DNA of 64,000 nt from Cinnamomum chago (Eukaryota > Streptophyta > Magnoliopsida > Laurales > Lauraceae), in NCBI GenBank assembly GCA_038049695.1, contig CP142458.1, forward strand, positions 64,637,501-64,701,500. Direction: 5' to 3'. Under the pieces are notes generated by a model that was not told the DNA's origin, did no database searches, and worked only from the letters and a program-made list of their open reading frames with translations. Shown one piece after another: positions 40,651 to 60,200 of this stretch; position 1 is the first letter of the stretch; each line of letters opens with the position of its first letter. The position numbers and the translations under genes were made by a program.

Positions 40651-43172
40651 CTACAATATAAATCTGTCATGAGTACAAAATAAGCTATTATCATCTTCAC
40701 TATGTTCATGTAAAACAATCTGAGCATCTGTGGATACTTTTGGCAAGAGCAGAAGTTGTTCATGGAGTAGAGCCACATTTGGTTTTGCTTGAGATAAGGA
40801 TTTGTCGCTTCGATATGCCTCGATGCCTTCCTTAGGAGTGACCAAAACCATGGTCTCCAATAAAACAGCTTTATTGAGGAGAAATTTCACCACCATCATT
40901 TGCCACCCACTCCCATAAAATCCATTCAGCGTTATTGTCTTAAGACGATGAAAAACACACCCTGATGACTCTTCTGTCCAGTCCATCCATGTACAAAAGG
41001 GAGGAATCCATTCGAGCTGTCAAATCTAATTGTATTAGATTTCAATAGAGTAATGATTATTAATTGTGATCAATACAATTGTAGAAATGGCTTAGGTTCA
41101 AGTAGACCAACCACGAGCTTTTCCAGGCAAGGGAAATTCCAATATCTGAAGAAGGCGATCAGGCCACCAGGATACTGGTCGCAAACTCCCAATTGCAGCT
41201 CTATCAGATTGGGGAGCGTAATAGGGAAACTCACAGGTGCAATTTCAAGTTCTAGCACATAAAAGTCCTACGATACATAAAAAAAATTATATAAAACTAT
41301 CACCAAGCTAAAAAGCCAAATTATCCAAAAGATGTTTAAAAGGACCCATTTGTTATATCGGGTATTGAATTCTTAGGAATTCTAAGCAATAACTTTCTAT
41401 CAAAGGTGCTAAAATTGAACGAGTAAAGGTAAAGATCAACAAAAGGGTGAAAAGGCTATCAGAAAGTCTCCCCTTTGGTAGGAGATGATCACCCAGCTGT
41501 CACCCTAAATCTCTGGCTTAACTCCTTCACTCTGTATTATAACTTCATCAGCCACCACTTTACTCAGAACTCATGTCAGGGCTGTGACAAAAGTCTTAAG
41601 CTGGCTGTCAACCTTCCTTCTTTACCCAGGCTTGAGACTGATGGATTACTAAGAATTGCTAGAAACTCAATACAATGAATTCAAATGGGGCAGCAAGAAA
41701 AGAAAAGCAGGGATAAAAATAAATAAAAAAAAGAAAAACACAAACTACTTCAAACTGGCAATGACAAGTGTTGAGTGTTTGACAACTTGAAGATGAGAAA
41801 GTTTGGACACAAAACAATCCTACTCAGTAAAGTGAAAAGATCAACAAAAGGCTATCAACAAGTCTCCACTTTGGTTAGGAGATGATTCCCCCACTTTACT
41901 CAAAATTCATGTTGGGGTTGTGACAAAAGTTTCAAGCAGGCTGTCCATCTATCAAATGCAAACCTCTTCCTTTATCCGGGCCAGCGACAAGGCTGTTCTG
42001 GTTAGGCTGACCACCTATCAAATGCAACCCTCTTCCTGTATCCGGGCCAGCGACAGGGCTGTTTTGGTTAGACTGTCCACCTATCAAATGCAACCCTCTT
42101 CCTTTATCCGGGCTTGCGACAGGGCTGTTTTGGTTAGGGTCACTAGACTTTGCTAAGAATCACTAGAAACTCAATACAAACCAATCAAACAGGCACAATA
42201 AAGAAGGCAGGGATGAAAAGAAATTACTGGCAAAAGACACGTTCTGAGAATCTGAAGATGAGCAAGTCTGGACACAAACACTCCTACTTTCTTCGCGTCA
42301 TGACAGTCCATCAGCGTAAAGCTTTTGATCTTCAAATCAGTAGCAGAAAACATAAACGAGCAAGAACCACAGCAGTCCACAAGAGAGAACTCCTCAAGCA
42401 TCGGGCACTTTAGGAGCATTTCATCGAGCACTTGGTGGGCGATTCGAACCCTAGTAAGATGCATAGCCCTGAGAGAGCCGAAACCCCTAAAACCCCTAGG
42501 AAGCTCGAAACAGTACCCACCCAATCTCAAGACCGCCATCGAATCACAAGAAACGAGACAAGGGGGCAGTTCGTATCTTGATGGAACTACATCAAAGAAC
42601 AGTTCGAACGTTTCGAGAGTGAAATCGAGATCAAGCTCTTTAACCCCATTTTGTACTGCGAATTCGATCCAATGATTGATGTTGGGGAGGAACTGCACCT
42701 GGGGATCGAAATGGAGCCGAAAGATGTTTATGGTTTTGTTGTTGCCTGTTTGGAGAAGCTGTAGAAATCGGTTGATTGTGTGTGAGAGTAGATAAAAGGG
42801 TTTATCGCCTGCGAAATCTGCACCAAAGTCTAGAGTAGTGGTGTTAGCCCACATGGGTTTCCAGAGGTCCTTCCAAGCGTTTGAGAGAATGCTTGTTCTC
42901 ACAGCGGATTTCAATGGCATCAAGGAAAGTATGTGATGAAGGATATGATTGGGGAGTTGGGTGATTCGATCTTCTTCTTCTTCTTCGTAATGGGATATCT
43001 TGTTCTTCTTGTGCTTCTTGATTGTGGGCATCACTGCAATCTCTAGCTCGTGGGTGATTCGATCTTCTTCTTCTTCTTCTTCTTCGTAATGGGATATCTT
43101 GTTATTGTGCTTCTTGATGATGGGCATCACTGCAATCTCTAGCTCGTGAGTTGTCTTCTTCTCCATGGTCAT
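40651..43172 (-). CDS. F-box/LRR/FBD-type protein, 3 exons
   Basis: Exons on the minus strand: 43172-42288, 41267-about 41112, 41016-40651, giving about 468 residues. Start choice: ATG at 43172 or 43166 (MTMEKKTTHELE). The open frame extends upstream to 43304 but that part runs into the adjacent MULE. The F-box reads DRITQLPNHILHHILSLMPL / KSAVRTSILSNAWKDLW. LRR-like blocks follow (LDFGADFAGD, VKELDLDFTL, LPPCLVSCDSMAVLRL, LKCPMLEEFSLVDC). The second exon ends near FPCLEKL, and the third (HRLKTITLNGFYG, MMVVKFLLNKAVLLETMVL) is an FBD domain. Known family role: substrate receptor of SCF ubiquitin ligases; the substrate is unknown. The exon 2 donor is uncertain. The region before the F-box is a tandem duplication. 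Confidence 0.85.
41949..42146. repeat. Tandem repeat, 3 x 66 bp, in F-box intron 1
   Basis: CTATCAAATGCAA starts at 41949, 42015 and 42081. Each copy continues with CTCTTCCT.TATCCGGGC and GGCTGTT.TGGTTAG. Related words occur at 41580-41640 and 3700-3745, so the unit belongs to a dispersed family. Confidence 0.9.
42966..43155 (-). repeat. In-frame tandem duplication in the F-box gene
   Basis: The coding sequence repeats HELEIAVMP.IKKH, KISHYEEEEE and DRIT twice in a row, one copy ending directly in the F-box. The Glu run is encoded by a variable TTC microsatellite on the plus strand. Confidence 0.9.
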
Positions 43173-43231
43173 TTGGCAGCAGGCTCCCCTCTCAAGTCTC
43201 TCAATATGAGTTGTCTGATTCATATATGAAA

Positions 43232-43267
43232 GGGAAATTCTATTCACACCCACTGGAAGTGATGAAT
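43232..43267 (+). repeat. Outer MULE left TIR, first part
   Basis: Interrupted by the inner element at the GTGATGAAT target; the repeat resumes at 50312 with ACACCCAC. Confidence 0.88.
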
Positions 43268-43302
43268 GAGAGCAGCTATATACACACTGCGTTTTGCTCT
43301 CC
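43268..43302 (+). repeat. Inner MULE left TIR
   Basis: 35 bp, pairs with 50268-50302 at about 29 of 35 positions. Confidence 0.9.
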
Positions 43303-43825
43303 ACCCTCTACATCTCTTTACACAGTGGTCTTCAGTGCGGGATTTGCTCTCCACACTCTGTATTTTCCCTAAAACACCCATTGCTGGACTTGATGAAACT
43401 ACTCCCTACACTCTGCATTCTTCCCTCCCATTTCACGTTCTGAAAACCTCCCATTTCACGTTCGAAAGACCTCATCAGCAACTACTTCTTTCGCTGCACC
43501 TCCACATCGAAGATGATCTCGACGATATAGCTAATTACGCCGAGCAATACAAAACCGTCTTTCGCTGCACCGTCTTCAGTGTGAGACCTCGTGTTCAGCC
43601 ATCTCTCTCTTCTTACCTTCTTCATCAAACTGCATTACTGTGAATCGTCGACTTTCCAACCTCCGTGAGTGATTTCGATTTGTTTTAATTGATTAGAAAT
43701 GTCTGCAGTTTTGTTTTAAGATCAAAGATTTGGTTTTTTCAAAGTTTTTTACCTCCCTCATTCACCTTTGCATCCCCCATTACTCCATCCATCGTCATCG
43801 TTTTAGTGTGAGTAAGAAGAACCGG

Positions 43826-44056
43826 TTCGGCACTATGGGTCCGAAAACAGAGATTACTTTTGGCCTCGATGATCCGCATATATGGAGTTATCTCGGTAGT
43901 ATGGGGCCGAGAGGAAAAACTTTTCTCGGCGTCAATGAACCGAATAGAGTGTCATCTCTCGGCACTGTGTGTCCGATCAAAACCTAATTTCACGGCTCTG
44001 TAACGCCGAAACTATATTTTCCACACGGATAGTCAGGGCCGAATGGTCTGACTCAG
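43826..44056 (+). repeat. Inner MULE dyad array 1 (7 units, 33-bp pitch)
   Basis: Units start at 43826, 43859, 43892, 43925, 43958, 43991 and 44024, exactly 33 bp apart. Each carries a half-site like CTCGGC or TTCGGC and, about 8 bases later, a complementary GCCGAG/CCGAA-like half-site. The last two units have CACGG. The array lies in a probable 5' UTR intron of the PMD gene (donor CC/GTGAGT at 43665, acceptor TTTTTTCCAG ending 44090). Confidence 0.9.
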
Positions 44057-44094
44057 TGCTGCACTATGTACTGATATTGTTTTTTTCCAGATAT

Positions 44095-46116
44095 ATGGAT
44101 GTGCCGGGTACATCTAGGACTCGACCCACAGCGTCGAACAGGAGACTCCGTCAGAGGTTTGTTGCTGATGAGGTCGATGATGACGAAGAAGTAGTTGAAG
44201 AACAACCCGAAGCCCAAGTGGAGACCGAAGTTTCCGAACCGGCAGAAGAAGTACGTCAACAAACTTCTTCTGCTGCTCATTATAGGACTGGAGATATTCC
44301 CGGGGGGCCTACAAGTTTGAGCCTGCTACCTAGTTTCAGGACGCATATTGCTGCAAGTATTTGGCAGCAGCAGGTTTGTGTTTAATCTTGGTTAACATGT
44401 TTTAATCTGTGATGAAAATATTATTATCTTCACTAATTTGTTATTTATTTCGTTTTGCAGGAGAGACCGCCACTGAAATGCATAAGCCATGGCCAAAAAA
44501 TCACTGAATGGGCATGGAATTCAGAGGGAAGGCAGAATACGGTTTTTAGTCGTCTCATTGGCCGTTCGGGGTTGGCTCCATTGGTGGCGACATCTTATCG
44601 TTCCATCAACAAGAACATGATGTCAGCATTTGTGGAAAGATGGCAGCCTGAGACAAACACATTCCACATGCCTTTTGGTGAAATGACGATTACCCTTAAT
44701 GACGTGGGCACCATTCTTGGGATCCCGGTCACTGGAAAATCTGTATCATTTGAGCAACTGTCATTTGAGCGATCAAAGACACTTGTAGAGCATGGTCTTG
44801 GGGTCACATCCCAACAGGCACACGAAGAGTTAGTAGGTGTGCGGGGCTCGTCGGTTAGACTGGAGTGGCTGAAGGACCTATACGGAGATGTGACTGATGC
44901 GGATCCAGAAGAGCACATTAGGCATGCCGCAAGAGCATATCTATTGTATCTCTTGGGATGTACACTCTTCGCAGACAAGACCGGCACGAGGGTTCCAGTG
45001 GTCTATCTAAGGCTGTTAATGAACTTCGATGAGGCACGCACCTATGCTTGGGGAGCTGGTGCGCTTGCTCACCTATACCGACAGTTGGGGTTTGCTACTT
45101 GGAGTGGTGTCAAGCAGATTGCAGGATACCTTACTCTACTAGAGGCATGGATTTACGAGCATTTCCCCAAGTGTAGGCCTCACCAAAACCGCACATACAC
45201 AGAAAATTTACCGCGGGTGCATCGCTGGGTGCCACGAAGAGAGTCTGGGGACCAAATGTCCAACTTGCAGTCATTACGAGAGGCACTTGACGATCTTGGT
45301 GCCCATGAGGTAAGTTCTTATAAGTTATAAATTCCAAAAATCTTTAAATGAGTATCGTATAATTTAACGTATGCATTTGTCGATTAATGTTGCAGGTGGT
45401 GTGGGACCCCTACCGAGAGCATAGGGCAGAACACCCCTTTCACGAGGTTGCTTATTATACTGGCTGTATTAAGTGCATGGACATCGTAGAACCATATCAT
45501 CCTGATCGGGTGCTTAGGCAGTTTGGTAGGGTCCAACGCATTCCCCCCACTCCACTAGCTCCACAGCGCGCCAGTAGGGGTGCCACCGCAAATCAATATC
45601 GGATTGCTTACAATTACTTGGATCAAATATGGGAGAGGTGGCATAATCACGTCCTGTCTCCGATGGAGCGTGGTGTGCCTGCGTTGCACCCATGGGACTG
45701 TGCACCCAATTATATGGAATGGTTCCTCCGAGTGTCGCATCCAATCATTTAGAACCCTGCACATCGCTCCACGTTTAATCCGCGTGTTCAAGATTCTATG
45801 GGCAGCTCTTCTATTGACCCACGTTTGGTACGATCCTTGACGAGCATATCTATCATTTTAAGTATAACCAACTATACAAACATTCTAATTTGTTCATTAT
45901 GTGATTAATTAACAGCGCATCGTGAATGCCCAAAGTATTATTCAGCCTATTCTGAGGAGAGGCCATACTCTGAGTGTCCAAAATCCTGATGCCTTGTACA
46001 CGGCCCTTGAGGACGTCAACAGGGTCCTAGATGGAGTCGATCCAGAAGATCTTGTTCATAGACCGACACGGAGCGAGGCACGCACTTACAGCCGCAGGGC
46101 TAGACGTGGGGTCTAG
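44095..46116 (+). pseudogene. PMD (plant mobile domain, MAIN-like) gene of inner MULE, nonsense codon near 3' end
   Basis: Exons 44095-44373, 44461-45309, 45396-45827, 45916-46116, phase 0 throughout with GT-AG borders. ATG at 44095 gives MDVPGTSRTRPTASNRR and then an acidic linker. The PMD hallmark reads FVERWQPETNTFHMPFGEMT and ITLNDVGTILGIPVTG. LLYLLGCTLFADK, YAWGAGALAHLYRQLG and VVWDPYREHR follow. An in-frame TAG at 45750-45752 interrupts exon 3 where the outer copy has Gln. As read, the protein would be about 494 rather than about 586 residues, losing only the C-terminal tail (which resumes NPAHRSTFNP and ends RRARRGV). Known: Arabidopsis MAIN/MAIL1 PMD proteins act in transposon silencing and development, and PMDs are often carried by transposons. 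The role inside this MULE is unknown. The conserved core is intact, so some function may remain. Confidence 0.88.
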
Positions 46117-46361
46117 GATGTGATATGTATTTGTTATGGTTGTAAACTGAATTTCAGCAATTTTTTTGGGTAACAGAGATGTACCACATGTAAAACTTTA
46201 TGGATTTAAATTTTTATGTAAAAATTTCTTATCACCTTTTGGCCACTTTATGGATATCTTTTTTTGTGCTTCATTTTGTATTGATGTTTCTTTCTATGTA
46301 CACAGCATTTATTTGAAATAGATAATTGTAAACTAGTTGTTTCAGGTTTGAAATAATGTAG

Positions 46362-46592
46362 CTCGGCGTCTCAGGCCCGAGAATATGTATTTTCCTCGGC
46401 GTCTCAGGGCCGACCGAATTCGGTCTACTCGGTGTCTCAGAGCCGACCGAATTCTATATACTCGGCGTCTCAGGGCCGATAAAATGTTATCTGCTTGGCG
46501 TCTCAGTGCCGATTAGATTTGGTATACTCGGCCTCTCAGGGCCGACATTATAGTTTTAACTCAGCTTCTCAGAGCCGAGCAAAATATTATAA
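46362..46592 (+). repeat. Inner MULE dyad array 2 (7 units, 33-bp pitch)
   Basis: Units start at 46362, 46395, 46428, 46461, 46494, 46527 and 46560, exactly 33 bp apart. Consensus dyad: CTCGGCGTCTCAGGGCCGA, i.e. half-sites TCGGC and GCCGA around an 8-base centre. It lies between the convergent 3' ends of the PMD and transposase genes and is the most homogeneous of the six arrays. Confidence 0.97.
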
Positions 46593-46997
46593 CTCATATC
46601 AGGACCACTCAGTTGAAATTGTCGTAAGCTATATGCAATTAAGAGATATAGACTGTTCTTTTATAAAACAAAGTGAAAATGTTCTCATCTGAATTTACAA
46701 AATGCTCAATTGCATTAAGCTCTTAAAATACATTGGATCCGCATTGACATCCTTATAAAATATAACAATCATTCTAGATCGATGGTTTCGCATGTGGCAA
46801 CTGATGGACTTATAATCTCTCTGAAAAATTGGATCCGAGATTGATAAGCTGTATCCCAACCATCTGCAGAAGGGTGATGGTGACGAATCCAGTTAGTAGC
46901 AATAGGAGGAATTGGATGACCCTGTACGAGGAAAACCTACATATAAGAAGGAGTTCAAGTGAGTCACGGCATTTCAAGTAAAATAAAATTTGGGAAT

Positions 46998-49913
46998 CTA
47001 TGCATCTACTATTATCACCTGAACAAAGTGGTTTTGATTGACAAAACCGATTGCGATCTCCCGTCTAGCAACAGTAGGAATAGGGACTGATCGAAGAGGA
47101 AGAAAAGTCAAGCATTGCTGATTTGACAAATGGTATAGGACAACGTTATGGTGCGAGGCAATTAGATGTCCCATGTCCGGCATCGTCATCCATCGATCAT
47201 ATGGAGGGCAATCCCCTTGGTACGATATAATATTGAGAAGTTCATCAACCCTTTGGTGTGATCCATATAGTTGTCTGTAGTGTTCTGCATGAGTCACCAA
47301 CTCTCTAGAGAGATCTTTCCGTACCTGTTGCCACGAATCCTCACCAAGTCCCATCAACCCTGCAATGGCTCTAAAGCCACAATTGCCATCCGCATTGACA
47401 TCTTTTACATGATGAATATAAGACCTTAAGCAATCTGGGAGTGTGTTAATATAAGTGGTTGGCTTCAAATTTCGGGTGCGGATGACCTTTTGCTTAGGAA
47501 TCAGCTTCTTCACGGGCACCAAAGAGGCTCCACTGCTGACAATAGTCTCTTCCATCTTTAAGATAGGAGAGTAACTATCCTGAGCTGATTCGGCATATTC
47601 AAAGGAAGAGGGTTCACGTTTAGTAGAGTTGTGCAATTTCAATTTGGGGCGCCCCCGACATTTAGTTTTCGAATCTGGCTCGATCAGTGAGGTCGTCTCA
47701 GGTTTTGCAAGCTCCCTAAGTTTATCCAAGATCTGTAACTTCTTTCTCGAATCATAGCCCCTGAACTGTTCGACAATTAAATCTATCTCTGGCATGCAAT
47801 CCAAATTGACACTGGAGTCCTGGTCATAAGCGGTATGTAGTAAGTCAAGCTTGCGCCAATGCATATGCGTGCAATCTAAAGGAATAGGGCGACCAGCACT
47901 TACGTATTCTGCAATCTCATGAGCACAAGGTAGGCCATGTGTCTGTCGAAGTACACAGCCACAAGCATCTCTATCAATACCGACGGATGATGCTCGTTTC
48001 GTCTCGGCCAAGATTTTCTCTAATGCACATATAGAAACATTCCCACGAAGTTCTTTGAATTCAGAAGGCTTGAAATTGTGTTGGACAACCGTCTTACTTT
48101 TTTCAAATGATGCTTTTATATCTGTATGTTGCAGCAACAATAGGTTGTGTATCTTCATCCATGAGTCTTCAAAAGTGCCCTGACTTGATCCAAGCTGCCG
48201 CTTCAGCTGTGCATGTGAACTCTCCACCCTGTTTGTAGTAGTGTTCCCAAGATGCATGACCTTGTCCGTCCAGGCAACCACAAATCTATCCTTGTACGCA
48301 TCTAACCAAGACACTCTAACATACTGAAGTGCTGCAGGATAGTTAATGAACTCCTTTAGAAATAAGTTGAATTGCAGATTGTAATGTTCCTCTGTGGATG
48401 AAGAGACCAACATGTTCCAGCTCATTATAAACCGGTCCCACTTTTCCTTCGTCTCAAACAACTTCTTGCATTTAGCCAAGATATTTCTGTTGATATGCCA
48501 TCTACATAAAAGATGTTTGGCGCCGGGGAAAACAATAGATATGGCGTTCATTAAAGCCATCTCTCTGTCAGTGACGATAATGCTAGGAAGAACACCCTCG
48601 CCAATAACTTTGCGCAAAATACCCAATGCCCATGAGTAGCAATCTTCACGTTCATTCTGGAGATATACAATGCATACCGAAAAAGTCTTCTCTGTGGATG
48701 TAACCCCAACAATCTCCAATAAGGGCATTCGATACCGATTGGTCTTGTAGGTGCAGTCCATTATCAACACATGAGGAAATGCACGCAAGAGGTCTACGCT
48801 GGTAGGGTGTGTGAAGAACAAGTCAATGACAGTATCTGTTGTAGGACATTTCCTATGCCACTCAATGTAACCATGCTCCGCCAATAATTTCAACAGTTGC
48901 TGCATCTGATTCCGTCCAGCCCTCTCCGCAACTTTATGCCTTTGACGTGCATTGTAAATGGTCTTCATTGTGCTTACATTTAACTCATTTCTATGTTTCA
49001 GTGTCACCAAGATATCCTTTGGCCGAACCATATTCTTGGACATGTCCACCAGCACTGAAGTTTCATCCTTTGTTAATCTCCCTGCAAATGAGTGCCCTTC
49101 CAGAAAGTCTGCAGCAGGATGATTATGCACACCACACACTACATGCAACATCCATTCCTCATTTGAGCCAACCACTTTACCTTGTAACGTGAATGGGCAT
49201 CCGCATTTTTTCGAACCAGTCTGCTTCAATTTCTTCCCACCAGTCCCGTCTTTAGTAATCCTCGTGTTTCTATAAGACCCACTCCTCTCACACCCAAGGG
49301 TCAGCCTTGGTTTTTTATTTCTCCTGTTGGGCGCTGCTGATGTCTTAATCACAACAATGAAACCATTTCTCCTCCCAACATCACGAGCCCAATTAATTAG
49401 GGATTCTCGACTAGTGAATATCTGCGCATAACAAAAAAAAATCATATTGAACAAAGTGACTACATCAATTTAACTATCGAATGATTCATCTCGATTAATT
49501 ACCTCTTCGGTGATAAACTCATTACTATAGTCGACCACACATTCCGAGCCAACCTTGCTGCATTCAGTAGGCGCATGAAACTGCTATAGAACCAATTTTG
49601 TTAGAATAAGTAAATGACACAACTGCACGGCTCTGAATATCCGGTCAAAATTCAATTGTTCGGCCCTGCATGTCCGCATATTTTTCTTATTCTCGGCACT
49701 ATTGTGCCGCGAAAAGTACCTATGTTCGGTCTTTCAGGGCCGTGAAAAATACCTCTGGTCGGCCCTGAAAGGCCGCGTAGAGGACATTCGGTCGGACATA
49801 CAGGGCCGAGCAATTCGTCTCTTCCGATTTGCAAAGTTTGCGATGAATATGCTTACCTCGACGCTCCTAGAATGATCGGGAGACATCTTCTGCTTGTCCT
49901 TTTGCTCTTCCAT
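46998..49913 (-). CDS. MULE transposase with C-terminal OTU domain, inner element, intact
   Basis: Exons on the minus strand: 49913-49857 (MEEQKDKQKMSPDHSRSVE), 49580-49503, 49421-46998; 852 residues without interruption. Order: FAR1/WRKY-GCM-like DNA-binding region (about 45-150; CGCPF ... VVCGVHNH), MULE catalytic domain with Asp267 (LIMDCTYKTNRY), Asp330 (IVTDREMAL) and Glu445 (NRVESSHAQLK), and a SWIM zinc finger CGCVLRQTHGLPCAH (532-546). Then comes an AT-hook-like RGRP (634-637) and an OTU cysteine-protease domain with DVNADGNCGFRAIAGL (Cys726) and a C-terminal NHFVQV (His843). Known: MULE transposases cut and paste DNA at TIRs; OTU proteases remove ubiquitin. The catalytic residues of both enzymes appear present. 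Intron 1 holds dyad array 3. This is the only fully open transposase in the pair and so the best candidate for activity. Confidence 0.95.
49626..49823 (+). repeat. Inner MULE dyad array 3 (6 units, 33-bp pitch)
   Basis: Units start at 49626, 49659, 49692, 49725, 49758 and 49791, exactly 33 bp apart. Half-sites are TTCGGC/CTCGGC/GTCGGC and complements; the first unit has TGCACGG. Sequence phrases (GGCCCTGAAAGGCC) suggest the array is inverted relative to array 2. It lies wholly within intron 1 of the transposase gene. Confidence 0.92.
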
Positions 49914-50267
49914 TGATTAAGAATGCTAGCAAATTGAGTTTCAACTTTGAATGAAATCAAGATTAATGAGGTGCAGTCAATTGAGAATGAAGTGAGGATT
50001 CAAACCGAGAGAGAAGATGAAAGAGGGAGGAAGTAAAGATCAGTAAAATGCGGGAAGAAGTAGAACTTCATTTCATGATGCAGAGGAGTGAATGGACGGA
50101 AGTGGAGAGGAGGAGTGAAACCCTTAACGCTGCACGTTCAGACGTCTCAAGTGGAGGGAAAATATGCAGTGTGCAGATAGCATTTCAAGTAGTGTGGGAG
50201 GGCTGAAGTTCATACATTTTGGTAAATTTACAAGTGGGCATTTTAGTCACAATCTATTGCAGTGTGA

Positions 50268-50302
50268 GGAGAGCAAAATGCAGTGTGTTGGTAGCAGCAC
50301 TC
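50268..50302 (-). repeat. Inner MULE right TIR
   Basis: Reverse complement begins GAGTGCTGCTACC and ends TTTTGCTCTCC, pairing with 43268-43302. Confidence 0.9.
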
Positions 50303-50657
50303 GTGATGAATACACCCACAACTTAAATATTTTTTAATTACTAAAATGCCCTCGGGTGAAAGGATGAAATTGCCCTTACCAGCAACATCTGTCTTCCTCC
50401 TTTGGTTCACCAGCAGCAGTCTCCAGCAAACTCCCTCATTCATTCTTCTTCTTCTTCTTCTCCTCCTCCTATCCCTTTATCCATTCCCTTCTCACTGCAC
50501 CTCTGCACTCCTTCTTCCTCATTGATTTTCATCTCCTTCATCATCATTTCTTCTAACTCTTTTTAATATATCGTCAAGTCTCCTCCATTTATTGAACGAA
50601 CTTGGAAGTACAATTATCCCTACACCACATTGTGTATTTAAAGTAGGCATTTGCAAT

Positions 50658-53568
50658 ATGGACAAGCAGTTGACGATCTCCGAAAATGAGGTATATACAT
50701 TTTGACTTCATTTCGTTCGTTTTTTTTTTGTTTTCTCCCGTCCTGCACGACATTCTATAAGACGTGCAAAATTATATTGCACGGCCTATATATACCGTGC
50801 AAAATTGTTCTGCAAAGCCTATATATACAGTGCAAAATTATTCTGCACGGCATATATATACCGTGCAATATAATTTTGCACCGCCTATATAAACCGTGCA
50901 GAATAATTTTGCACCGCCTATATAAACCGTGCAAAATTAATAAATAGCTAATCTAAAAATTTGTGATAAGCAGGAGGTTGAATCAACCGGTGCCAGTGAG
51001 TGTCTTTTGGATTTTACAAATGTCTTCACCACTGACATGATATTCAGAAGTCGAGAGGGCCTAATCCAATGGACAAGGGATGTTGGAAAGAAACATGGCT
51101 TGGTAATTGTAATCAAGACTTCGGATGCTGGTGGAGATGGACGGAAGCCGAGAGTCGTTTTATCTTGTGAGAGAAGTGGTAGTTACAGGAGTCCATCGAA
51201 GGTATTCGAGAAGAGAAATCCTAAGAGGGCAACGGGAACGAAGAAGTGTAGTTGCCCTTTTGCTTTGAGGGGTCGAAAGTTGGCAACTGATGACGATTGG
51301 ATGTTAACAGTGGTTTGTGGGGTGCACAATCATCCAAACGCACAGCATCTAGAGGGGCACTCGTTTGCTGGGAGGCTTTCTATGGAAGAAATCAACGTTT
51401 TGATTGATATGTCTAAGAGTTTGGTGAAACCGAGGAACATCCTTCGAACATTGCAGGAAAGGGATGTGCACAACACCACTACAATTAAGAGTATCTACAA
51501 TGCTCGCCAGAAGTTTAGGGTGACAGAGATGGCCGGTCGATCATAAATACAGCAACTCATGAGGCATTTGGAAGAGAACAACTACATTGAGTATCATACT
51601 AGCAACGATGCTACAGATGTTATCATGAACCTATTCTGGGCACATCCATCATCTATTCAGTTATTACGTGCATTTCCAGAAGTCTTGATAATGGATTCCA
51701 CATACAAGACTAATAGATATCGACTTCCCTTGCTTGAGATTGTTGGTGTCACATCTACACAATTGACGTTCTCTGTTGCTTTTGTGTACATTGAATCAGA
51801 GAGGGAGGCCAATTATAGATGGGCTTTGGAGAGGCTTAAGGAATTAAGGGATGGATGCATCACGACCCGTGTGATTGTCACAGACAAAGAGTTAGCGCTG
51901 ATGAATGTAATAAATGTTATTTTTCCGAATGCAGCAAACTTATTATGCAGGTGGCATATTTCTAGGAACATCTTGGCAAATTGTAAGAAGTGTTTTGAGA
52001 CCAACGACAGATGGGTTGCATTTATCTCTTATTGGAACACATTGGTTGTCTCTCCAACTGAAAGCGACTACACGCAAATGCTAAGTGCTTTGGAACGGAA
52101 TTACTGCGGGTATCCACATGCTGTTGATTATGTGAAGACCTCATGGTTGAATAAGCATAAGGAGCAATTTGTGGCTGCATGGACGGATCGGCATATGCAC
52201 TTTGGGAACGTCACTACTAACAGAGCTGAGAGTGCACATGCAAAATTAAAGAGACACCTAGGCACATCGAGCTGTAGCTTTGATTCGTCCTGGCAGGTTA
52301 TACATGCCTTGCTAGAGTTGCTTTTTACAGAAATAAAGGCTTCTTTTGAAAAGAGTTTGAACACCGTGCAACATAAGTTCAAACCGGCACTGTTTTGTGA
52401 ATTGAGAGGATTTCTATCAAGGAATGCTTTGGATATAGTGTTAAATGAGTCGTTAAGGGCTAGTGATATTGGTCCAGATTCTACATCATGTGGGTGCGTA
52501 ATCCGACGGACTCATGGTTTGCCATGTGCACATGAAATTGCCGAGTACATAAGGGAAGGTTCTCATATACCACTGAGTAGTGTCCACCACTATTGGCGGA
52601 AGCTCAATTTAGAAGCCACTATGGTGAACGAAGCCCTTGAGTTGACCACAACTTCAGAGTTCGAGTTGATCAGTAAGAGATTTCAAAGTAGTGATCAGAA
52701 GGATAAAATTCAGATTTTAAGAAAACTTAGAGAACTCGGTTGTCCTTCATCTACTTCTCTTATCGAACCAGGCGTAAAATTGAATACCCGCGGTCGGTCA
52801 TCATCGAAAAGAAAGAAGTTGGATAGATCTACGCGTCGGGAACCATCTAATTTTGAATACGCACTGTCGATAAAAGATAGCGTTCCAGCTAGATTAAACA
52901 ATACAGTTGCAACGAAGAATAAGGAGAAAATGACTGTCCGTCGCACTCGGTCATGTACGTTTATGCATTTGCTTCCTCAGTCTTTGGGCCCCTATATCCA
53001 CACTATTAAGGATGTTGCAGCTGATGGTAACTGTGGATTCAGAGCGATAGCTGGTCTCCTAGGCCTGGGCGAGGATAAATGGATGCAGGTTAGACTGGAT
53101 TTGAGCAATGAATTGCAGAGGTATCAAAATTATTATGCACAGGTCTATGGAGGAGAGGATAGGGTTGGGGAGTTGTATTACGCATTGTGTTACTTTGAAA
53201 GCAATCCTTCATTTGATCGATGGATGACAATGCCGGACATGGGTCACTTAATATCTTCATATTATAACGTTGTGTTGGTCCTTCTTTCACTGCAGCAGTG
53301 CCTTACTTTCCTGCCTTTGAGATCATCCCCGATTCCATCAAGTTCTCACAAAGTGCTCGCGGTTGGTTTCGTCAATGGAAACCATTTTGTTCAAGTCTTC
53401 ATGAAGCCCGAATCACCCATGCCTCCCATTGCTACAAATTGGCATAGACACCACCATCCTGAAGCAGACGGATGGCAGCTCCTATATGCAAAGAGCATCG
53501 AACAATTCAGAGAATTGATTGGAAACAGTGTCGCAACGCAGGAGTCGGTCAATCTTGACAGCGATTGA
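50658..53568 (+). pseudogene. MULE-OTU transposase of outer element, one nonsense codon
   Basis: Exon 1 50658-50690 (MDKQLTISENE), exon 2 50974-53568, phase 0, about 875 codons. Domain order matches the inner copy: FAR1-like region (CSCPFALRGR, VVCGVHNH), MULE Asp in LIMDSTYKTNRY, Asp in VIVTDKELAL, Glu in NRAESAHAKLK, SWIM CGCVIRRTHGLPCAH, OTU ADGNCGFRAIAGL and GNHFVQV. A TAA at 51544-51546 interrupts the frame where the inner copy has Gln, consistent with a C-to-T change. The AT-hook-like motif reads RGRS here, so it may be lost. The C-terminus has a tail absent from the inner copy (HRHHHPEADGWQLLYAKS). Intron 1 (50691-50973) carries dyad array A. Confidence 0.92.
50744..50942 (+). repeat. 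Outer MULE dyad array A (6 units, 33-bp pitch)
   Basis: Units start at 50744, 50778, 50811, 50844, 50877 and 50910 (one step of 34, the rest 33). The dyad is TGCACGG (or TGCACCG) and CCGTGCA around about 10 bases, separated by AT-rich linkers. It lies inside intron 1 of the outer transposase gene. Confidence 0.95.
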
Positions 53569-53713
53569 TTATGTGTACTATCCATTTGATGTAAACAAAC
53601 ATATTACATATTTTGTATTGAAATGCCAATGGATTCGATGAGGTCTTTATGTGTTTATGTTGTGTATAAATTCATTAATAATATTCCACAGAAGGTATTA
53701 CTTCATTAACAAC

Positions 53714-53878
53714 TGCTCGGTTAAATATGGCTGGGCAAATTTGTTCTGCACGGCAACCATATTCCGTGCAAATATATAATGCACGGCAAAAAGTTGCCGT
53801 GCATAAACTATTTGCACCTTAATAGAGTGCCGTGCACACACTATTTGCTCGGAACATGGTGGCCGTGCAGTGTATTTT
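53714..53878 (+). repeat. Outer MULE dyad array B (5 units, 33-bp pitch)
   Basis: Units start at 53714, 53747, 53780, 53813 and 53846, exactly 33 bp apart. Inner units are TGCACGG ... CCGTGCA; the first and last begin TGCTCGG. It lies between the convergent 3' ends of the transposase and PMD genes, the position of array 2 in the inner element. Confidence 0.95.
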
Positions 53879-54145
53879 ATCAATTATTCGGACAGATGCA
53901 CATAACATACATATCCATATAAAACATACAAGTTCAAACATAAGAAAGTGTTTCCTCAAAACATCCATTAAAAAAATGGATACATCTGTGCAGTGATCCA
54001 TCCATCCATACATATCCAAAAAATTCCTTACATCGAAAAAATGGATAAACCCATCCATACATCCTCTAAAGTATATGCTTTAAATTCCCATCCATACAGA
54101 CTTAACAAAAGAATAAGACAAAAAAACAAAAAAACCCTCATGCCA

Positions 54146-56490
54146 TCATGGATCTGTACGTCGTCGGTACGTCACTGGCAAGCCCTCCAGGATCTCGAGG
54201 GTGGTTTGGAGTGCCCGGTAATAGAAATCTGCAGGCTGTTCCGTTCGTGCAATCGTAGCGCGGAGATGGTCCCTCGCCCGAGTGATCTGTAAGAAACAAA
54301 TAACTGTGTCAATACTTAAGATAAGTATAACAAATGGATGCATAATGTTTCGATAAAGTACAAACACTCACCACTCTTGGAGTCGGGTCATCTACACCCT
54401 CATTAGGGTGATAGTGGGAATGACGTTGGGGGTTCTGTACTCGAGGGTGTGAAATCCTAAAAAACCACACTAGGTAGTCGGGTGAGCACTCCCATGCATG
54501 TTGCGCTCGATGGCCGCGGTGCGCTAAGGACAATACATGATCCTCCCAAGTAACCCAATACTGGTCTAGAAACGCGTAAGAGACCCTGTATTGTCCAGCA
54601 GTAGATCCCCGAGACGCACGAATGGGGGCGAGCGGTGCAGGTGGGATGGTCTGTACATATCCAAACTGTCGGAGAACCCTATGTGGATGGTAGGGTTCAA
54701 TGACATCTAGCGCTCTCAAGCAACCACAGAAGAAAGATATCTGATGGAATGGATGATGAGCCCTGACACCAGTATACGGATCCCACTGGACCTGTGGCAA
54801 GTAAATGAAAGAACTCATTATTATAATAAAAATTTGTCCATTGAAAAATAAGTGCAACATGATACCAAGGACCCCATATGGGTGCTCACCTGACTCGGAT
54901 GTAGGTCATCCAGCCTCTCACGCAACAGTTTTATGTTCTCCCTCGCAATCCCAGAATCCTGTCCAGGATTCCAGCGGCTCGCTTGAGGCATACCAGCGGT
55001 ATATCCCCACTGCGCATGAGGACGGGTAAATGGGAAGTGCTCGTACACCCAAGACTGCAAAAGATACCAATTATTAATTATACAATTTAAAGGATCAATT
55101 ACGATGGAACATGTATATGTATATGTATTACCGTGAGCAGTGTCAGATATCCAACAATCTGTCGCACGTCTGCCCTCGTGGCGGTCCCCAATTGGCGATA
55201 AAGATATGCAAGTGCAGCAGCCCCCCATGCATAACGACGGACCCGTGGCAAGTCCATCAGTAAATGTAGGTAGGCAATGGGGACTCGAGTGGCTGACTTA
55301 TCGGCGAAGAGTGTGCAGCCTAACAAATACAGAAGATAGCCTCTAGCTGCACACTCTACCTGCTCAACAGACGATGCATGACTCACCTCGCCGCACACCC
55401 GTTTGATCCAAGCCATCCTCACTACCCCACCACGAGCTACTCTCAACTCAGCTGACGCAGATGCCCTATCCTCGCCCAATCCACGCTCAAGTAAATCTAC
55501 TTGATCAGTAAATCCCATACTAGTCGATGCGTGGACAGGCAATCCCGTTACTGGGATGCCGAGGAGAGTACCCACATCATCTAAGGTGATCGTCATCTCA
55601 CCAAATGGCATGTGGAAGGTATTTGTCTCGGGCTGCCACCTCTCTACAAAGCTGGATACCAGAGGGCTGGAGATATATCGATAAGATAAACGCTTCAAAT
55701 CTGCCAATCCAGACTCTTCTATAATAGCATGAAACCGAGGAACATGGATATCGGCCCCATCCCCGGGCTGAGGTATGTACCAATCCTTCAGCCCTCGCCA
55801 ATGATTGATACATTTCAGTGCCTCACGTTCCTGCACATTACAAGTATAAATCTTCATTAATATATGTTATTATAGACTTCAACACATCTTATTTGAAAAA
55901 CGATTAATTAAAACATTAAAAAAGGCAATTGTACCTCCCCGTCCCATATGGACAAGGCTACGTGTGTCCTAAAACTCATAAGGACAGATAGGTCGGCCGG
56001 ACCGCCGGGGATAGGACCCTCCCTTGTCGCCGCAGCAGGAGGACTGGATGGCTGTCCCTCCTCGAAATGGGAATCATCCTCCCCTGGTTCCCCTGCAGGG
56101 AGACTGGACGGCTGTGCCTCCTCCTCAGAGGAATCATCCTCTGAAGAACTGTCACCATGCTCTTCTCCTGGTGCCGATGCACGGGGACTGGACGGCTGTG
56201 CCTCCTCCTCTGAGGAATCATCCTCTGATGAACTGTCAAGATGCTCCTCAACCTGCTCCGGGAGTGGATCCTGTTGCACTTTTCGTCTTCGTTCAGACGC
56301 CGTTGGCCGTTGACGGCCGGCGGTCGAAGAACTCGCATGCACACCTCGGGAACGCGCACCTCGGGAACGCGGTCTTGAGACACCAATCTTCGTCCGAACT
56401 CTCGATGGCTCGCGAGAAGAACTGGCCCGTCCCCCGTCCCCCTGTCATCTGTGAGCTGGCACCAATACGGCGAGCTGGTTTTCTCGGCAT
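54146..56490 (-). pseudogene. PMD gene of outer MULE, probable N-terminal frameshift
   Basis: Exons on the minus strand: 56490-55935, 55830-55132, 55054-54890, 54791-54372, 54286-54146; phase 0 downstream. The core reads FVERWQPETNTFHMPFGEMT and ITLDDVGTLLGIPVTG, then LLYLLGCTLFADK, YAWGAAALAYLYRQLG and VQWDPYTGVRAHHPFHQ, ending TYRRRTDP. There is one more intron than in the inner copy (after GYLTLLT). The N-terminal linker contains the acidic repeat SSSEDDSSEEEAQPSS twice. The only sensible ATG (56490, MPRKPARRIGASSQ) is in a different frame from the core. The switch lies in the G/C homopolymers around 56427-56445, so there is a 1-nt frameshift there or a base-call error. About 610 residues would follow if counted from 56342. 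Confidence 0.85.
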
Positions 56491-56548
56491 TTCATCCAAT
56501 CTGTTAAAAATGAAAACCAATAAAAGAGATTATCATATTTTGTTGTAC

Positions 56549-56779
56549 TGCTCGGTTTAAATAGACAGTGCAACATTGTTCTGCACGGCGAAATGGTACC
56601 GTGCAAATTCTTTTTGCACGGCGAAATGGTACCGTGCAAATTCTTTTTTCACGGCGAAATGGTAACGTGCAAAATCTGTTTGCACTGTAATATGAACCCG
56701 TGCATATGTATTCTGCACGGTTTACACTTACCGTGCATAAAATCCCTGCACGTTTCTGGACTGCCGAGCAGATCGCGAA
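56549..56779 (+). repeat. Outer MULE dyad array C (7 units, 33-bp pitch)
   Basis: Units start at 56549, 56582, 56615, 56648, 56681, 56714 and 56747, exactly 33 bp apart. Core dyad TGCACGG ... CCGTGCA; the edge units carry TGCTCGG or CCGAGCA. It lies in a probable 5' UTR intron of the outer PMD gene (minus strand: donor CAG/GTGAGA at 56964-56963, acceptor AACAG ending 56501). Confidence 0.95.
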
Positions 56780-57219
56780 CAACTATCCATGTTTTCAAAA
56801 ATGGAAAACATTGGAGTTCGAAACTATTCATGTTTTCATTACGGACTTCTTCCCTATTTGTTGCAGAGGTCTCACAACTATACTCTCTAATGCATAAATT
56901 ACAACCTAAACAAATTTGTGAAAATGATAAACCTATGAAGAAGAAGAAGAAGAAGGGCTCTCACCTGTTTGAGTGTCCCTGCTGATGAAGAAGACGAAGA
57001 AGAAGGAACGCAGCTCACCAACCGTCCACGAGGGTGTGAGAGATCTGAAGTGGAGAAGGTCGACGACTCCGAAATGGCCAGAAATTTGAAAACTCTGAAC
57101 GAGGGAATGTATTCAGGCAATGGAACGAATGGTGAGCTTGGATGGGCAGTTTGGGGATTATGGTGGGTGAGCTCAGTAAAATCAAGCCAAAATTAGAATG
57201 GTTGTGGTGAGTTCAGCAA

Positions 57220-57263
57220 GTGGGTGTATTCAGGAGTCTTAGTGGGTGCATATAGAATTTCTC
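57220..57263 (-). repeat. Outer MULE right TIR
   Basis: 44 bp. The reverse complement starts GAGAAATTCTATATGCACCC and ends TGAATACACCCAC. It is followed by the target duplication TATATGAAA. Confidence 0.9.
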
Positions 57264-60200
57264 TATATGAAAACATTTTTACAAGGGGCCACTATAGTCA
57301 CCTGCACAGTGTTGTAGTAACTTGTAAAAAGGATTTCAAACAAAAAGGGTCATCTTCTTCTTCTTCTTTTTTTATATAGGGAATTAATATCAACACCCCG
57401 TACTATGCGCGGACCACAGAACCACTCAATGCACAGACTAACATGTATTATTTTTATTAAATAATTTATTTAATAAACCGTTTAGTCATTTCTTTGTTGT
57501 TAATTTGATTTTTATGAGTTTTTTCAAATATTTTATTATTTACGTGAGGTATAAATGGAGCTTGTTGAAGCTTGGACAGGTGTAAAAAAATTAAATGAAA
57601 GACACTCCTATGTATATACGCTAATTACCAATTTGTTATCGGTCCACAAATAATCGTTATTATGATTATTCAACCATTATTTGGTCAATGATAATTACCA
57701 ATATAATGATATATGATGATTTATAAAATGATCATTCTGTAAATTATTAATTATGACGGGCAAAATGATTGTAATTGATTATAGAAATAATTGGCTTATT
57801 TCTTTTCATAGTGATTATTTGACTTTTTTTGTCTGTTTGAGTTTCCATAATGACATTTATCCCAAAATGATCATTCAACAAAATGATTTGACGTCGTAAC
57901 AGTTCATCCATTTATTTTGCTACAAAATAAGATGATCATTTATCAAGTCCGTAAATCATTTCTAACTAATCATCTTAATTAGTTGATTTAGTCAGTTAGG
58001 GGGGGAATAATATCCCTCCTTAAGATGATTGACCCCACGAAAGATCAATCATCAGTTAATATATGACCCTGATGGTCATATAATATAGGATGATCAATCG
58101 AATATTACTCTCATCCTAATAACTTAGGATGATCCCTATTATCAACTGATTGATCCGAATAGGATTGTGACTAATCACTGTTTCCTGCTATCTCCGTGCT
58201 TTTGATTGGCCAGGGTAAATCAGTTAGGCCCTCCTCATTTTTCTCCAACCAAACACTAATCATTTACCCTGGGTCAAAAGTGACCCAGTTTCACAATCCA
58301 ATTTGGTGTATCGTTATAGTCAGTTATAACAACCAGTGACCCGGTTGCTTGTGATCCAACCACTTGATTAATTTCTTTTCACAAAAGAAAGAAAGACTCT
58401 TTCATAACTTGTGCAGAGCAATTGACATTTTCTCACCGATTTATATCAATTGTAACTATATGTAGAGATGTCATTTATTTAATAAATCACAAATTAAATA
58501 ATGTTGATGTAATCAACATTTTTTCTCATTTGATATCATTTGTCTGTAAATTATTAATTATGACGGACAAAATGATCGTAAATGATTATAGAAATAATTC
58601 ACTTATTTCTTTTCATAGTGATTATTTGACTTTTTTTGTCTGTTTGGGTTTCTAGAATAACATTATTTCTCATTTGATATCATTTGTTTCATTTGTATAT
58701 TGCAAATTAAATACAAAATAAATATATAAAAAAGGATAATAGAGAGAGAAAACCCTCATCCATCATCCATGCATACCATTTCTCAACGGATGGTAGAGGC
58801 GCTGTTGCTACAACGAAGATGGAGTTCCAGGCTGAACCCTACGAGCGACGATGCTGCTGGAGTGACTTATACCGTTGTTTTGTATCCTCAGAAATCAGAG
58901 TCATTGCTCTCTTCTTCTTCCTTTCTTTTTATCCTCTATTTCTTCTTCTCTTTCTCTTCCTACATGACCTAATTTTTTTGCGGAAGATTTTGTTGAGGAG
59001 GTTTTGTTGAGGAAGTTATGTGTAAGTTAGTGGAGGGACAAGTGACTTGATGAAGTAGGACATGTGTCTTCATGTGAAGGAGGACAGGTTTCAGCATACT
59101 AAGGGAGACTACATTCCTTTAGTATAATAGATTTAGGTGGGAACTGTTCTCACCTTATATGTGAGAACTCTCTTAACAGTTATTGGATCGTTAAAGTGGA
59201 TCCAACGACTGCCACATTTTATATATAATGTTCGCTTTTCACATTGGGCGCCTAAACTTTTCATTTCCCCCCTTTCGAAGATTCAAGCCAAAATCCAGAG
59301 CCCCTTTCGTCTTCCCCTTTCAGCCATTCCATTCGATCAGAGCGGTTTCCTCTCTTCTCCAGGTTCTAAGGCTGAAGACTCTCCGCTCCATCTCCATCTC
59401 CTCATCTTCCTCTATATCGCAGATAAGAGATCGAGTTTCTCCTCGGACCAAGAGACATCCAACGATTTCAGATCTGGGCCCTGTCGCTTGCCAGAAGTTG
59501 TCCTCTCCTCTCCTCCAGAATGACGAAACTTGTCTCTCGCCGAAGATATGGGGCAGGCGCAGTGCTAGAGTTTATTCCTCTTCCCCCTTTCATTTTTTCT
59601 AATCGAACCCATTTGCTTCCATCCTGCCCTCTATCTCGATTGAGGAACCGAAGATATACAGGAGCTGAGCCCATTCTTTTGTCGAAGGGAAGCAAAGAGG
59701 ACTCACAGATCATCACCATAGAAGTCTGCATCTCTCTCAGCCGACCCAGCGAGGAATTAGGAAGGTCAGATTTCTCTTTTTTCTCTTTTTTTTTTATTTT
59801 GTAAAAGAGCCCCTATCACGATCTTTGGAATCCATACATTTGATTTTTGAGCCGGATAAAAGATGAGACTGCAGTGCTATATTTGTCAACTTTGTGCCCT
59901 TGATTGATCATCACAGGCTTTGATGAAAACATATTAAGAGTTGTAAAACTAGCTCAGAATGTTGAGAAATGCTGATAAAAGCCTCAGAGATCTAGAATCC
60001 AAAATATGAAAATGCAGTCTACCGAGAGACATCAATCTCAAACTCATGTACTGTGATACTACGAGAACAGCCCCTGAAACAGCAGAACCCCAACCCACAC
60101 AGGCATCCAAAAGCTACATCAGCCAATGGGTTGTGAGTGGATAACATATTCATCTGTAAAAGATACCATTAAAAAAAATAATGCATCTGTAAAGATGGTT

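Follow-up and report, generated by a model that had tools for sequence, protein, structure and literature searches.

Dyad arrays with a 33-bp pitch in two nested Mutator-like elements of Cinnamomum chago, candidate platforms for family-specific self-recognition

Two nested elements and their six arrays

The window analyzed here is a 64,000-nucleotide stretch of the Cinnamomum chago genome (assembly GCA_038049695.1, contig CP142458.1, positions 64,637,501 to 64,701,500 of the forward strand), which contains two Mutator-like elements (MULEs), one nested in the other, and within them six arrays of short inverted repeats, or dyads, repeated every 33 bp. The outer MULE (element 2) spans 43232..57263 and is flanked by a perfect 9-bp duplication, TATATGAAA, at 43223-43231 and 57264-57272. 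Its left terminal inverted repeat is split by the inner MULE (element 1; 43268..50302; 7,035 bp), and the terminal repeat GAAATTCTAT...CACCCACT...TGAATACACCCAC pairs up when element 1 is omitted. Element 1 has a perfect 9-bp duplication of its own, GTGATGAAT, at 43259-43267 and 50303-50311, and terminal repeats that align over 34 bp; near-identical full-length copies of it occur elsewhere in the genome (for example, locus L024 at 99.7%). This nesting had been described correctly in an earlier inspection of the letters (hereafter the sequence-only reading). In addition to the duplications and terminal inverted repeats, matches to the DDE transposase profile PF10551 (2.7e-27 and 4e-24) and to PF00872 (2.7e-8 and 1.5e-6) place both elements among the MULEs. 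Neither the elements nor the arrays are assigned a strand.

Both elements carry a transposase gene and, on the opposite strand, a gene for a plant mobile domain (PMD) protein. The element 1 transposase reading frame (46998..49454, minus strand) is open over 818 amino acids in a mechanical listing and joins a FAR1 zinc finger to a MULE DDE domain (Pfam MULE 2.7e-27), with a C-terminal otubain-like stretch that is matched weakly (Peptidase_C65, E 0.22). In element 2, an in-frame stop closes the N-terminal part of the transposase (51007..51546, plus strand), which contains the AFT/FAR1-type DNA-binding domain; the catalytic part (51559..53568, plus strand; Pfam MULE 4e-24) follows. The PMD protein of element 1 is encoded in a main part (44455..45330, plus strand; Pfam PMD 4e-58, weak DUF1985 at E 0.031) and a C-terminal part (45387..45752, plus strand; Pfam PMD 1.8e-12), and that of element 2 likewise in a main part (55099..55857, minus strand; Pfam PMD 3.5e-44, weak DUF1985 at E 0.0037) and a C-terminal part (54309..54860, minus strand; Pfam PMD 6.9e-10).

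The two elements have a common layout, with one array in each of three main noncoding gaps, namely the putative first intron of the transposase gene, the putative leader intron of the PMD gene and the space between the 3' ends of the two genes; introns were delimited from GT...AG borders, the reading frame and agreement between the elements. In element 1, array E1-A (43826..44056; 7 dyads) lies within the putative PMD leader intron (43665-44090), E1-B (46362..46592; 7 dyads, with homogenized dyad centers) between the convergent 3' ends, and E1-C (49626..49823; 6 dyads) within the putative transposase first intron (49581-49856, minus strand). In element 2, E2-A (50744..50942; 6 dyads) lies within the putative transposase first intron (50691-50973), E2-B (53714..53878; 5 dyads) between the convergent 3' ends, and E2-C (56549..56779; 7 dyads) within the putative PMD leader intron (56501-56964, minus strand).

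The sequence-only reading had placed arrays of 7, 7, 6, 6, 5 and 7 units at 43826, 46362, 49626, 50744, 53714 and 56549, and these starts and unit counts (38 in total) were recovered here. Its 33-bp pitch is borne out by 31 of the 32 steps between units, the remaining step of 34 bp being due to an additional base, seen by eye, at the center of the degenerate first dyad of the 50744 array. A scan of all 64 kb at lags of 18-60 with a 50% identity threshold returned as lag-33 blocks exactly the six arrays, together with eight further blocks at other lags, and a laxer run at 43% added seven weak lag-33 places outside the elements, the best at 0.46. The comparison with shuffled controls that the earlier reading had proposed also came out in its favor, as none of 300 dinucleotide-preserving shuffles of either element reached the observed lag-33 value. 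As 33 bp corresponds to 3.14 turns at 10.5 bp per turn, successive units are rotated by about 50 degrees, and the earlier description of sites on one face of the helix is therefore a loose one.

Every array follows one plan, a dyad with a CGG-N10-CCG core common to the dyads of both elements. Of the 26 occurrences of this core in the window (100 shuffles: mean 1.36, maximum 6), 25 fall within arrays, and other spacings from 4 to 24 occur 1-6 times each; within the array regions, the 25 occurrences at N10 compare with 0-3 at other spacings from 5 to 24. The half-site consensus at positions -14 to -5 from the dyad axis is TTTGCTCGGC in element 1 (40 half-sites) and TTTGCACGGT in element 2 (36 half-sites), the element 1 bases being loose at positions -11 (G in 14/40) and -10 (C in 21/40), with T in 31/40 at -9. 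When element 1 units were compared with element 2 units over all 33 registers, identity was highest in the dyad register (0.436; next 0.307, mean 0.25). Across the window the CpG observed/expected ratio is 0.57; it is 0.48-1.02 in the 200-bp flanks of the arrays and 0.99-1.63 within them, and most CpGs of each array fall in the half-site cores.

The spacer, which the sequence-only reading had called poorly conserved, is so in the arrays at 43826 and 53714 (all-pairs identity of centers and gaps 0.24-0.36; random 0.25) but not in those at 46362 and 50744, whose centers are 0.85-0.88 identical. The two halves of a dyad vary independently of each other. Mirrored positions match in 121 of 200 cases in element 1 and 122 of 180 in element 2, against means of 121.6 and 125.1 when right halves are dealt randomly within arrays. 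At core positions, 35 and 33 deviations affect one side only; two-sided deviations number 4 and 6, and 3 and 1 of these are symmetric.

Recurrence in copies, subfamilies and families

The 1.06-Gb assembly containing the window was searched for further arrays. Twenty relatives of element 1 were picked for a perfect array-B motif, so that at least one array is built into the sample, the other arrays and the pitch not being so. With an array finder that joins units having at least five of six core matches, accepts steps of 32-34 and can pass over a single weak unit, all 20 relatives were found to carry arrays (three in 18, four in one and two in one), and 313 of 316 steps were 33 bp, some of the units being degenerate (L043, the first array of L045, and L049). 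At other pitches the finder returned 0-6 units (25-31 and 35-44) compared with 376 at 33; the 367 and 366 units at pitches 32 and 34 are owed to its tolerance of one base either way. Mismatch within the arrays of these relatives is 0.038 for CGG, 0.054 for the center, 0.076 for the rest of the half-site and 0.092 for the gap, and at CpG positions alone it is 0.030 in array cores, 0.040 in coding DNA, 0.024 in intergenic DNA and 0.054 in introns. Deviant cores are TGG or CAG in 61 of 90 cases, in keeping with decay of a methylated CpG, and CGA in 19 of 90.

A sister subfamily was sampled as 12 copies picked by transposase similarity from those at 90-91%. A six-unit array sits in the same intron in all 12, and 59 of 60 steps are 33 bp. 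Identity between element 1 and this subfamily is 0.646 in the array, 0.711 and 0.895 in the intron flanks and 0.933 in the DNA-binding exon, with a mean of only 0.1 gapped base in 199 within the array. Between subfamilies, the letters of the array change faster than their surroundings, and the pitch and core are retained. Elements that share 53-55% of transposase residues likewise keep the pitch and CGG-N10-CCG.

Further families were sought through the AFT profile, which matches 92 places among the best candidates in this genome and none in 14 control genomes. Twenty of the 92 loci were picked for a match length unlike that of the element 2 type and are a non-random sample; the finder returned a CGG array in six of them (0/400 shuffles), and in three of these six the half-site is a third one, TGTTCGG. 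Two full elements of the TGTTCGG family have the three-array layout, a MULE transposase with a FAR1 domain and a PMD gene on the opposite strand. Their half-site consensus is TTTGTTCGGA (52 half-sites, two elements), and all 20 steps are 33 bp; a chance-looking chain in locus L061 at 4926 was dropped from the half-site and step counts. The sequence-only reading had made its case depend on finding arrays in other family members and had proposed a search of sister MULEs for the same pitch with different half-sites. Both have now been found in the same genome, and retention of dyad and pitch alongside the loss of much of the spacer holds across copies, subfamilies and families.

Perfect dyads were also counted genome-wide on one strand, with the reversed pattern as control. 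TGTTCGGN10CCGAACA occurs 1,463 times (2 in the control) and TGCACGGN10CCGTGCA 637 times (1 in the control). With N9 in place of N10, the TGTTCGG dyad occurs 7 times (control 0), and with N11 it occurs 41 times (control 5). TGTACGG dyads are no commoner than their control (5 and 5); none of the arrays seen has this half-site as its consensus, although single TGTACGG halves do occur in the TGTTCGG family. Searches for relatives in viral and prokaryote contigs, and for the array patterns in viral contigs, yielded none.

Several of these matches stand apart. Most of the 41 N11 dyads have nearly one center sequence, of the TCTCTGAGTGA type, and represent either a single insertion passed on by inheritance or a family that has a spacing of its own. 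At C1:45674878-45674996 and C1:45691275-45691331, TGCACGG dyads with other centers form pairs 95 bp and 33 bp apart, outside the element 2 layout, and perhaps belong to further families. In one lineage of AFT-domain loci that lack the CGG array (L055 at about 1465-1560 in the sense direction, L042 and L044), a different short palindrome around GAATATATTC lies upstream, at a pitch of about 18 bp in L055; it is perhaps that lineage's own version of the platform.

Comparison with known systems and candidate binders

The closest precedent is the VANC system of the Arabidopsis VANDAL elements, and the statement in the sequence-only reading that no named feature type exists for such arrays is too strong, since VANC target arrays are described (PMC5735166, passages). 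In these passages, the short motifs bound by VANC21 are concentrated in introns, between genes and in the terminal noncoding DNA of the family that encodes it, and methylation is lost from these regions when VANC21 is expressed. VANC motifs differ between related families and sit in fast-changing tandem repeats (available parts of PMC5735166 and PMC10398659). VANDAL21 and VANDAL6 thus resemble the present elements in being MULE-type and in having noncoding motif arrays that turn over quickly and differ between related elements, as well as a second gene besides the transposase. Unlike the dyads here, with their fixed N10 and rigid 33-bp pitch, the VANC21 motifs are nine bases long and lie in one orientation (PMC5735166, same passages), and that text contains neither "palindrom" nor "inverted repeat", "period" or "spacing". 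A further difference is that the second protein here is a PMD protein and the transposase has a FAR1/AFT domain.

PMD-bearing MULEs of the MUDR type and neighboring groups share with elements 1 and 2 the transposase, the antisense PMD gene and the 9-bp duplications (PMC6446971 and PMC5418596, excerpts). In the excerpts of PMC6446971, where "palindrome" occurs twice and "subterminal" and "tandem repeat" are absent, there is no dyad array; its table gives VANDAL as having "PMD and/or DUF in half the members". PMC5418596 (passages) describes PMD-C fused to MULE transposases; in elements 1 and 2, PMD has a gene of its own. Element-encoded proteins acting against the methylation of the element that encodes them are likewise on record, as TnpA-linked demethylation in En/Spm and MURA-linked hypomethylation (both as cited in the available text of PMC10398659). 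Spm differs from the elements here in belonging to another superfamily. Its sites are subterminal, unlike the arrays in every noncoding gap seen here; in Ac and En/Spm, subterminal repeats serve as transposase sites. Clusters confined to both ends do not describe the present elements, in each of which one array of three is central. No title or start of an abstract describing 33-bp dyad arrays in MULEs was found, in a search that left out most subscription papers. Motif arrays in noncoding parts of VANDAL and PMD-bearing MULEs are already known; a fixed-geometry dimer lattice with swapped half-site letters did not turn up in the literature searched.

Because the half-sites are paired at a fixed spacing, vary independently and have family-specific letters, the arrays suggest a dimeric DNA-binding protein. 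The best-placed candidate binder is the FAR1/AFT domain of the transposase, since its relatives bind TGCACCC, with which Aft1 is associated (PMC6250833, passages), and CACGCGC, bound by FHY3/FAR1 (PMC6000157, passages); TGCACGG resembles both. The WRKY-GCM1 zinc fingers of FHY3/FAR1 and of yeast Aft1/Aft2 (TGCACCC/ACACCC) belong to the Pfam families found at the transposase N-terminus and have sites with GCAC or CACG, which in these passages are quoted singly, unlike the dimer lattice here. The domain of element 1 scores 28.5 bits for FAR1, above the cut-off of 28.1, and 16.4 for AFT, below 21.6. That of element 2 scores 30.9 bits for AFT (3.4e-7), above the cut-off of 21.6, and 24.3 for FAR1 (5.2e-5), below 28.1. 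Residues C54, C81, C83, H107 and H109 are invariant in a two-sequence alignment of elements 1 and 2, and C54, C83, H107 and H109 align with yeast AFT2; the conserved cysteines and histidines presumably bind zinc. The sole match of the element 2 N-terminal part in the Protein Data Bank (PDB) is yeast AFT2 (4lmg), a weak one at E 0.28.

The PMD protein is the alternative candidate. DUF1985 matches were obtained in the PMD main parts of all four elements tested, covering the same stretch of the profile at E 0.0008-0.042 and 14.3-19.8 bits, below the 35.1-bit cut-off, and in none of five other PMD pieces. DUF1985 is one of the two domains marked in VANC proteins (PMC5735166, passages). Ikeda et al. 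raise the speculation that MULEs use captured PMD for anti-silencing, and write that the function of PMD "remains to be determined" (PMC5418596, passages).

The ends of the elements were examined with the same half-site matrices. Each element's own matrix places its own ends at the level of chance, a fraction of 0.37-0.91 of random stretches scoring at least as well. When scoring is limited to the outer seven bases, the element 1 ends are equalled under the element 1 matrix by 3-5.5% of random stretches, and under the element 2 matrix 6.5-24% are as good as its own ends and 9-12.5% as good as those of element 1. TTTGCTC, the outer seven bases of the element 1 consensus, occurs in the terminal zones of element 1 at 43293-43299 and 43343-43349 on the left and at 50271-50277 on the right. 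At each end of the outer element there are two copies of CACCCAC at matching offsets of 15 and 37 (43247-43253, 50313-50319, 57220-57226 and 57242-57248), each preceded so as to fit YRCACCC, the Aft consensus; the element 2 transposase has an AFT-type domain. The TTTGCTC copies and YRCACCC pairs were found post hoc and are only leads.

Interpretation and rival explanations

Any explanation has to address what is established here, namely the arrays, their pitch, the dyad core, the placement in noncoding gaps, the family-specific half-sites and the recurrence in the genome. We consider the arrays to be docking platforms for a dimeric, element-encoded protein that would serve family-specific self-recognition, most likely for anti-silencing in the manner of VANC and VANDAL, and give this reading a probability of about 0.6. 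Self-recognition and anti-silencing are taken as the likeliest output because the arrays match the logic of VANDAL in place, family specificity and turnover. A half-site of about 10 bp comprises TTTG, two family-variable bases, CGG and one more base, and two half-sites face each other as CGG-N10-CCG, with a dyad every 33 bp. Before CGG, one family has CA, followed after it by T or C, and another has TT, followed by A; the looser element 1 family has mostly CT or TT, followed by C. Such variable bases could let each family mark its own copies. A sequence-specific dimer, presumably the FAR1/AFT zinc-finger domain of the transposase or the PMD protein, would dock on the arrays, and the arrays, once bound, would protect the introns, promoters and gene borders of the element from silencing and thereby help its two genes to be expressed.

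Several observations weigh against this reading. Neither element has the full half-site in its terminal inverted repeats, which a transposase must also bind. No CGG array was found in the roughly 2 kb upstream of 14 of the 20 AFT-domain loci (ten with a common, distinct DNA-binding domain, one element-2-like and three without a readable domain). A profile built from both DNA-binding domains together gave no match in PDB, and position -10 of the element 1 half-site is C in only 21 of 40. Among the 20 relatives, arrays diverge faster than coding DNA, mismatch outside the arrays is 0.050 in non-array intron and 0.035 in intergenic DNA, the latter below the 0.038 of CGG, and the gap of array E1-C varies no more (0.034) than its half-sites do (0.041). 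As intergenic DNA is kept at least as well as CGG, the recent copies alone do not prove purifying selection on the core.

The arrays could alternatively be sites inside the element at which the transposase builds a transpososome or joins the ends, like the subterminal repeats of Ac or En/Spm, with no part in gene control. The FAR1/AFT zinc finger carried by the transposase, the TTTGCTC copies in the element 1 terminal zones and the two YRCACCC matches at matching offsets of each element 2 end would fit such a role; given that one array of three lies mid-element, about 3 kb from the nearer end, and that the full half-site is missing from the terminal repeats, we regard it as unlikely. Slightly less likely still is a role as transcriptional enhancers or intronic activators recognized by a transcription factor of the host, such as one of its FHY3/FAR1-type proteins, rather than by an element protein. 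Putative leader or first introns do house four of the six arrays, and FHY3/FAR1 bind a CACG-containing site (PMC6000157, passages), but half-sites that differ between related families in one genome would be hard for one host factor to read, and an array also sits between 3' ends.

Two explanations dispense with a binding protein. The arrays could be debris of tandem duplication, slippage-born satellites that are palindromic by chance, as homogenized centers within the 46362 (0.85) and 50744 (0.88) arrays and divergence faster than in most of the element might indicate. This is improbable, as pitch and CGG-N10-CCG survive near-random identity of centers and gaps, subfamily divergence and 53-55% transposase identity, and as units of elements 1 and 2 agree best in the dyad register (0.436 vs 0.307). 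The simple satellite that the sequence-only reading had already discounted is rejected, since the pitch is kept at near-random spacer identity. The dyads might instead act as RNA or DNA hairpins or cruciforms, such as splicing, small-RNA or termination signals, the units being inverted repeats and several arrays lying in putative introns. Mirrored positions do not covary, that is, changes in one half are not compensated in the other, and the half-site letters themselves are conserved; the hairpin reading was therefore rejected and is the least probable of all. The multimeric protein that the earlier reading invoked fares better on this point, since a dimer fits non-covarying halves better than a hairpin does, though binding as such is something we infer.

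A broader proposal can be put forward tentatively, at somewhat less than even odds. The elements would use a MULE self-recognition code in which CGG-N10-CCG every 33 bp is constant across families and two or three swapped half-site bases give distinct addresses, read by the FAR1/AFT domain or by PMD as a distant VANC relative, keeping copies of the own family active and leaving the rest of the genome untouched. A transposon that lifts silencing from its own copies only, with specificity that shifts between families, has been studied in Arabidopsis VANDAL. The candidate target described here is far more regular, with a constant geometry, few changing bases and more than 2,000 perfect dyads that belong to two families of a single genome. 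As the candidate DNA-binding domain adjoins the arrays, co-evolution of protein and site becomes testable, and a concrete hypothesis is provided for the role of the plant mobile domain in MULEs. If few bases set the address, these elements could also supply dimeric DNA-binding modules whose specificity can be swapped.

Finally, some minor features of the window lie beside these subjects. The 5' end of an F-box/LRR gene (open reading frame 42171-43304, minus strand) was the insertion site of the outer MULE, and the first codons of that frame lie within the element (window 43221-43304). Three 66-bp tandem copies with 91% matches adjoin the F-box gene at 41938-42138, and an 84-bp tandem duplication is present at 56083-56246, in the N-terminal part of the element 2 PMD region.

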